From assembly GCA_015978205.1 (NCBI GenBank), contig JADWMM010000001.1, positions 199,712-263,711 of the forward strand: DNA of 64,000 nucleotides, given 5' to 3'. The notes beneath the pieces are model-generated. The model was not told where the DNA came from. It saw only the letters and a list, made by a program, of their open reading frames with translations, and did not search any database. A program made the position numbers and the translations under genes. How positions within the stretch are numbered: the first letter of the stretch is position 1; each line of letters opens with the position of its first letter. Of this stretch, positions 38,619-39,534 are shown in pieces. The DNA comes from Alkaliphilus sp. NP8. Lineage in GTDB: Bacteria; Bacillota; Clostridia; Peptostreptococcales; Natronincolaceae.

Positions 38619-38626
38619 AATAAAAA

Positions 38627-38664
38627 CAACCTTTACTTTTTAACAAAGTAAAGGTTGTTTTTTA
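38627..38664 (+). terminator. Terminator after dnaD-dnaC pair
   Basis: aacaacctttactttttaacaaagtaaaggttgtttttt. Confidence 0.8.
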
Positions 38665-38666
38665 TT

Positions 38667-38741
38667 TGGTGACTCCTAGGGGAATCGAACCCCTGTTACC
38701 GCCGTGAAAGGGCGGTGTCTTAACCGCTTGACCAAGGAGCC
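38667..38741 (-). tRNA. tRNA-Glu (anticodon TTC)
   Basis: Minus strand GGCTCCTTGGTCAAGCGGTTAAGACACCGCCCTTTCACGGCGGTAACAGGGGTTCGAATCCCCTAGGAGTCACCA. Confidence 0.97.
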
Positions 38742-38795
38742 ATAACAGCAATTCTCAGTATGCTTAAAACTAAGAATCACCGTTTATAAGTTTAA

Positions 38796-38871
38796 TGGTG
38801 ACCCATCCGCGACTCGAACGCGGGACACCCTGATTAAAAGTCAGGTGCTCTGCCAACTGAGCTAATGGGTC
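38796..38871 (-). tRNA. tRNA-Lys (anticodon TTT)
   Basis: Minus strand GACCCATTAGCTCAGTTGGCAGAGCACCTGACTTTTAATCAGGGTGTCCCGCGTTCGAGTCGCGGATGGGTCACCA. Confidence 0.97.
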
Positions 38872-39025
38872 GTGCTCTTGCCACAGTTATATATTCTAAC
38901 TAAAAATTTAAGGTCTGTCAACATATTTCTTCAAATTTTTTATTATTTTTCTATATAATAATAAATTATAGTTTATTACATTAAAAATCTCTTTACTTAT
39001 TAACTAATATAATTAAAAAAATAAA

Positions 39026-39054
39026 AATCTAGGTTATAACCTAGATTTTTATTT
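39026..39054 (-). terminator. Terminator after the DUF1858 gene
   Basis: aaaaatctaggttataacctagattttta. Confidence 0.8.
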
Positions 39055-39063
39055 TTAATTATA

Positions 39064-39267
39064 TTATTTTGAATTTAAATGTTCATTTATTTCTTTAATT
39101 AAAACATCTACATCAATACCATGAACTCTTCCTGCATCACCGATGCTTTCCATTGTAGCACCTGGTCATCCAAGACAGTGAAGTCCATGTCTCATAAAAA
39201 TAGAAGCAAGTTCTTGATCCATTTGTAAAACTTGCATTATTGTCATATCTTTTGTTACAGTAGTCAT
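39064..39267 (-). CDS. DUF1858 (hybrid-cluster-protein-associated redox disulfide) protein with in-frame TGA at codon 34; candidate selenoprotein
   Basis: MTTVTKDMTIMQVLQMDQELASIFMRHGLHCLG(TGA)PGATMESIGDAGRVHGIDVDVLIKEINEHLNSK; RBS aggagg upstream; reading-through frame conserved-looking to the end. Confidence 0.75.
39134..39146 (-). promoter_or_regulatory. Candidate bacterial SECIS hairpin
   Basis: GCATC-GGT-GATGC perfect stem, G in loop, 24 nt from TGA to stem-loop apex start. Confidence 0.55.
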
Positions 39268-39354
39268 TATATTTCCTCCTTTGGTAAATTTGTGATTCCT
39301 ATAATATTACCATATTTTTTAACATATTTCCATTATAGATATAATTATTCATAT

Positions 39355-39534
39355 TTATCAACAAATCTACCCACATTTTCATATTTTTATTTTTTATTGA
39401 AGAATCCACATATTTATGGATTATTTTAAATATTATCCACAAAATCAACACTTTATACACACTTGTTCGGTGGATAATGTGGATAAAGTTGTCTTTTATC
39501 AATAAAATTTGTTAAATTTTCATACTTATTCACA
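39355..39534. promoter_or_regulatory. Cluster of DnaA boxes
   Basis: TTATCCACA 39433-39441 (+), TTATACACA 39453-39461 (+), TGTGGATAA 39478-39486 (-), TTATTCACA 39526-39534 (+); near match TTATCAACA 39355-39363. Confidence 0.75.

Follow-up and report, generated by a model that had tools for sequence, protein, structure and literature searches.

Structure and neighbourhood of the DUF1858 gene

The window analysed, a stretch of 64,000 nucleotides from Alkaliphilus sp. NP8, carries a short DUF1858 gene on its minus strand, and the features of the locus are collected in Table 1. The reading frame runs from 39267 to 39064 and, with TGA taken as a residue, gives MTTVTKDM...HGLHCLG-U-PGATMES...LNSK*. 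The start ATG occupies 39267-39265, and the TAA codon ends at 39064. The ATG is preceded by AAAGGAGGAAATATA, a ribosome-binding site rated as strong, and downstream of the TAA lies the terminator-like stem AAATCTAGGTTATAACCTAGATTT with a T-run. The ORF listing contained no ORF of at least 60 aa in this frame, and the gene is of the type that standard gene callers miss or drop. The original prediction had described a DUF1858 frame complete save for TGA at codon 34, with a good ribosome-binding site and terminator and absent from the ORF calls. The sequence and frame were as described, both signals were read directly around the gene, and the ORF listing used here agrees with the gap in the ORF calls.

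Table 1. Features of the DUF1858 locus in window coordinates
Feature	Positions	Strand	Basis
Predicted DUF1858/TIGR03980 selenoprotein gene, 67 aa, Sec codon 34 (CLGU = CxxU)	39064..39267	-	Translation with TGA as U; Pfam and NCBIfam matches; orthologues; confident predicted fold matching 2k53
TGA codon predicted to be read as selenocysteine, second Cys of CxxC	39166..39168	-	Invariant Cys column in relatives; TGA there in six other genomes
Ribosome-binding site, AGGAGG core	39272..39281	-	Direct reading; AGGAGG precedes the gene in relatives too
Intrinsic-terminator-like hairpin and T-run	about 39016..39057	-	Direct reading
bSECIS-like hairpin, stem GCAUC/GAUGC, loop GGU	39134..39146	-	Exact; loop 24 nt after UGA; 5/5 ESIxDA Sec orthologues; published rules
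Four perfect DnaA boxes (TTATNCACA), clustered upstream of the gene	39433..39534		Neighbouring feature, outside Sec decoding

The order rplI-dnaB-(GNAT or other gene)-DUF1858-(purA)-dnaC/dnaD-like genes was conserved in many relatives, of the Sec and Cys types alike. In 15 relatives purA adjoins the DUF1858 gene; it is missing at 38619-39064 of the window, where two tRNA genes lie nearby instead. Clusters of perfect DnaA boxes were also located in L016-L018, L020, L021, L023, L024 and L028-L032, at 85-267 bp before the start of DUF1858. The 16 loci compared (157 kb) contained 40 boxes, and 33 of these fell within 300 bp before the DUF1858 gene, where 1.2 were expected, often as inverted pairs spaced by about 45 bp. 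The cluster may act as a promoter regulated by DnaA or as a site of DnaA titration or regulation. A literature search by title and abstract returned no paper on a DnaA-box cluster upstream of DUF1858. A search of a plasmid collection with a 13-kb query matched about 1% and was uninformative.

Family membership and the Sec and Cys orthologues

The read-through protein matched Pfam DUF1858 (PF08984) over positions 2-59 of 59 (E 1.3e-18, 67.3 bits, curated cut-off 32.2) and TIGR03980 over 1-58 of 58 (E 3e-26, 91.2 bits, curated cut-off 44.95). The CxxU motif lies inside the domain as C31-L-G-U34, in agreement with the motif given in reviews. In an alignment with 22 relatives, in which TGA was displayed as C, both C31 and position 34 were invariant; the TGA therefore coincides exactly with the second CxxC cysteine, which had been proposed, and the Cys-containing DUF1858 homologues align exactly at it. 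A DUF1858 selenoprotein with CxxU, represented by WP_012065717.1, has been listed as a predicted family (PMC9312934; PMC13188914). Likened here by its listing in those reviews, it shares PF08984 and CxxU with the NP8 gene and is predicted too, but it belongs to another genome and has another sequence. DUF1858 was not named in the main text of two papers that the reviews cite for it, nor in that of the deep-Sep paper. The NP8 gene adds a member to this predicted DUF1858 CxxU selenoprotein family, and its novelty is lower because the family has already been catalogued.

The comparison covered 39 homologous loci and 20 genomes belonging to the same bacterial family. TGA was found at the same codon in six further genomes (L023=L066, L028=L071, L031, L072, L073 and L075), of which L028=L071 is the isolate genome of Alkaliphilus serpentinus and L031 is Ca. 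Petromonas tenebris. The remaining relatives had TGC or TGT at this position, often at the same locus. A sequencing or assembly error, by which the true codon would be TGC or TGT and the product an ordinary CxxC DUF1858 protein, would fit the same-genus relatives G004 and G005, both with TGC here, and the fragmented state of the NP8 assembly (81 contigs, 92.6% complete). However, the six other TGA genomes, including the A. serpentinus isolate, were assembled independently, and Sec machinery is present in the NP8 genome. Since TGA occurs at this exact codon in seven assemblies, such an error is very improbable.

It was also considered that the UGA might stop translation and the remainder of the gene decay as a pseudogene. 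UGA is able to serve as a stop codon, and the NP8 genome has another DUF1858 gene, the Cys-containing paralogue L080, which could assume its function. Against this, dN after the TGA was 0.16-0.31, with dS ranging from about 0.5 to 3 or saturated, values similar to those ahead of the TGA, and the residues following it are conserved like those preceding it. In addition, the start, the ribosome-binding site, the terminator and the residues around CxxU are intact. The dN far under dS after the TGA argues strongly against decay, and a truncated pseudogene is hardly credible here.

In L066/L076 (the same region, genome G016) and in L023, tandem DUF1858 genes lie about 380 bp apart, a Sec gene (TGA) being followed by a Cys gene (TGC). 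A duplication with Sec/Cys divergence is possible for these pairs.

In a tree of 50 rows, the Sec rows fell in several places. Six Sec/Cys changes were counted on the best tree and at least three were forced by well-supported branches, the 64 columns resolving little. Within one bacterial family, the Sec and Cys forms might have been exchanged again and again at a single conserved chromosomal locus, a reading that we hold tentatively and at a little under even confidence. If it is true, the locus, with SECIS-like arms in some Cys orthologues, would offer a natural series for Sec-to-Cys conversion and its reversal.

Decoding of the UGA codon

The genes for tRNA-Sec (anticodon TCA), SelB, SelA and SelD were all located on one 12-kb contig (C80) of the window's own genome. 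SelB reached 373 bits, above its cut-off of 242, and the SelA and SelD domains were both found, so that selA, selB, selC and selD, which the original prediction had named for checking, are all present. SelB was also over the cut-off in all five of the TGA genomes searched whole (G003, G008, G013, G014 and G016). Sec and Cys species cannot be told apart by the presence of SelB, because 18 of the 20 family genomes have it, nearly all of the Cys genomes included.

The use of in-frame TGA elsewhere in the NP8 genome was examined for SelD and GrdA. The frame of SelD was complete only with its active-site TGA read (SSSG-U-AAK), and GrdA, the glycine reductase selenoprotein, had one in-frame TGA in the motif CFV-U. 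GrdA represents a CxxU selenoprotein family that has been verified by experiment (PMC13188914). Like the DUF1858 product it is a small CxxU protein with an in-frame TGA in the same genome, but it belongs to the unrelated family PF04723 and its known role is glycine reduction. Since both SelD and GrdA need the in-frame TGA, UGA is very probably decoded as Sec in other NP8 genes.

The SelD gene (L015 8861-9910, minus strand, on C80) is itself a selenoprotein gene, and a plain ORF call begins too late and loses its N-terminus. From the dedicated tRNA-Sec and SelB, and from the position of the examined TGA codons at known or expected Sec sites, we infer that TGA is not reassigned genome-wide, and this explanation was rejected.

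According to published rules, a bSECIS has a stem of 4-16 bp and a loop of 3-9 nt with G as its first or second nucleotide, and lies 16-37 nt after the UGA (PMC13188914). With the rules scripted, the hairpin downstream of codon 34 conformed to this geometry (5-bp stem, 3-nt loop GGU, 24 nt). The original prediction had put forward a perfect GCATC-GGT-GATGC hairpin with its loop at 24 nt and G first. This description is exact, but as evidence the hairpin carries less weight than it was given, being weak alone and not the lowest-energy fold. The bare 5-bp hairpin had an energy of -3.6 kcal/mol, and the 44 nt from the UGA reached -9.5 kcal/mol but in another stem, the bSECIS threshold being -7.5 kcal/mol. 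A Watson-Crick stem of at least five pairs in the allowed window occurred in 5.9% of synonymous recodings and 8.4% of random coding positions, which makes the hairpin weak evidence when taken alone; its energy was equalled in 5.6% and 4.0%, respectively. The codons of the stem are rare in the 64,000-nucleotide window (AGC in 94 of 1133 Ser codons, ATC in 80 of 1641 Ile codons).

The evidential weight of the hairpin comes from its conservation among the Sec orthologues. Among the orthologues sharing the ESIxDA peptide, the exact GCATC...GATGC arms were found in 5 of 5 with Sec vs 5 of 22 with Cys (Fisher p=0.003, which is optimistic because the sequences are related). The diverged Sec genes L072 and L073, with a different peptide, had other 4-bp G-loop stems at 22-23 nt. 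In-register pairing of the helix across all seven Sec sequences was 88.6%, with one two-sided change, and in L072 and L073 the helix was kept in register only partly. The Rfam SECIS_1 model gave no match here, which is uninformative because none was obtained in any control genome either, and in an Rfam scan of 38950-39400 the terminator hairpin alone was hit, by weak matches attributable to chance.

Between L072 and L073, which belong to one genus, the peptide (ESLEMAS and ESLEDAS) shifts with the post-UGA stem-loop, AGCC[UGGAGAU]GGCU and GUCU[GGA]AGAC, respectively. Judged from these sequences, it looks as if the protein gave way to the RNA structure.

Sec might also be decoded through another structure, for instance a longer composite or the larger GGUGC...GCAUC stem. 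This stem is the minimum-free-energy fold (z -2.9 for 66 nt), and RNAalifold includes it in its consensus for the seven Sec sequences. However, about 9 nt separate its loop from the UGA, which falls short of the published range of 16-37 nt, the first two loop positions are without G, and the stem seems to be largely forced by the conserved PGATMESI peptide. A different SECIS is considered unlikely, and the 5-bp hairpin of the original prediction is the putative functional SECIS for UGA codon 34.

SelB with Sec-tRNA-Sec would bind the RNA hairpin just downstream of the UGA, and selenocysteine would go in at codon 34. The product would be a 67-residue five-helix DUF1858 protein with the CxxC redox motif as CxxU, which would work as a small thiol/selenol redox partner. 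The proposal of a candidate selenoprotein is supported by the Sec machinery, the Cys homologues, the bSECIS geometry and the independent TGA genomes. On this genomic evidence, we hold with very high confidence that the NP8 DUF1858 gene is an intact selenoprotein gene with UGA codon 34 read as Sec; insertion of Sec at this codon almost certainly takes place and is not much in doubt.

Predicted fold, possible role and meaning for the family

The predicted fold (mean pLDDT 91) had five helices, with C31 and position 34 in a loop before the short helix 35-38. It matched the solved relatives 2k53 and 2k5e with TM values of 0.88 and 0.81, respectively. TIGR03980, the hybrid cluster protein-associated redox disulfide domain with 2k53 and 2k5e as solved relatives, agrees with the NP8 protein in full-length sequence and in predicted fold, whereas the Cys form of this family has Cys where the NP8 protein has Sec. 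A weak fold resemblance to the N-terminal domain of YtfE/ScdA, which act in iron-centre repair, was also obtained (TM about 0.72, 12% identity, Foldseek E 2.2, not significant). Unlike YtfE, the NP8 protein is a single domain of 67 residues, with nothing matching the rest of YtfE. The name of TIGR03980 implies an association with hcp, which is not required for membership in the domain family. At this locus the association was not seen, the neighbours of the NP8 gene being dnaB, rplI and GNAT; two hcp genes were found on other contigs of the genome (C9 and C21).

Reports on relatives place DUF1858 proteins in several settings. A DUF1858 protein belongs to the NnrR denitrification regulon in Bradyrhizobium (PMC6710368), DrpB, a protein of nitrate respiration, has DUF1858 as its N-terminal domain (PMC6282519), and a DUF1858 protein described as a putative disulfide oxidoreductase is part of a peroxide-stress regulon (PMC8638851). 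By analogy, drawn from the family name, the weak likeness to the YtfE N-terminal domain and these reports, the NP8 protein could have a thiol/selenol redox role, perhaps in iron-centre or nitrosative-stress chemistry. We regard this role as evenly balanced, and it is much less certain than the Sec assignment.

The NP8 gene is a well-supported addition to the predicted DUF1858 selenoprotein family, with gene bounds corrected where ordinary callers drop the gene. Moreover, it comes with a set of close Sec and Cys orthologues, many of which share one locus and several of which come from cultured anaerobes. This set makes the benefit of Sec over Cys in a DUF1858 protein open to direct comparison.
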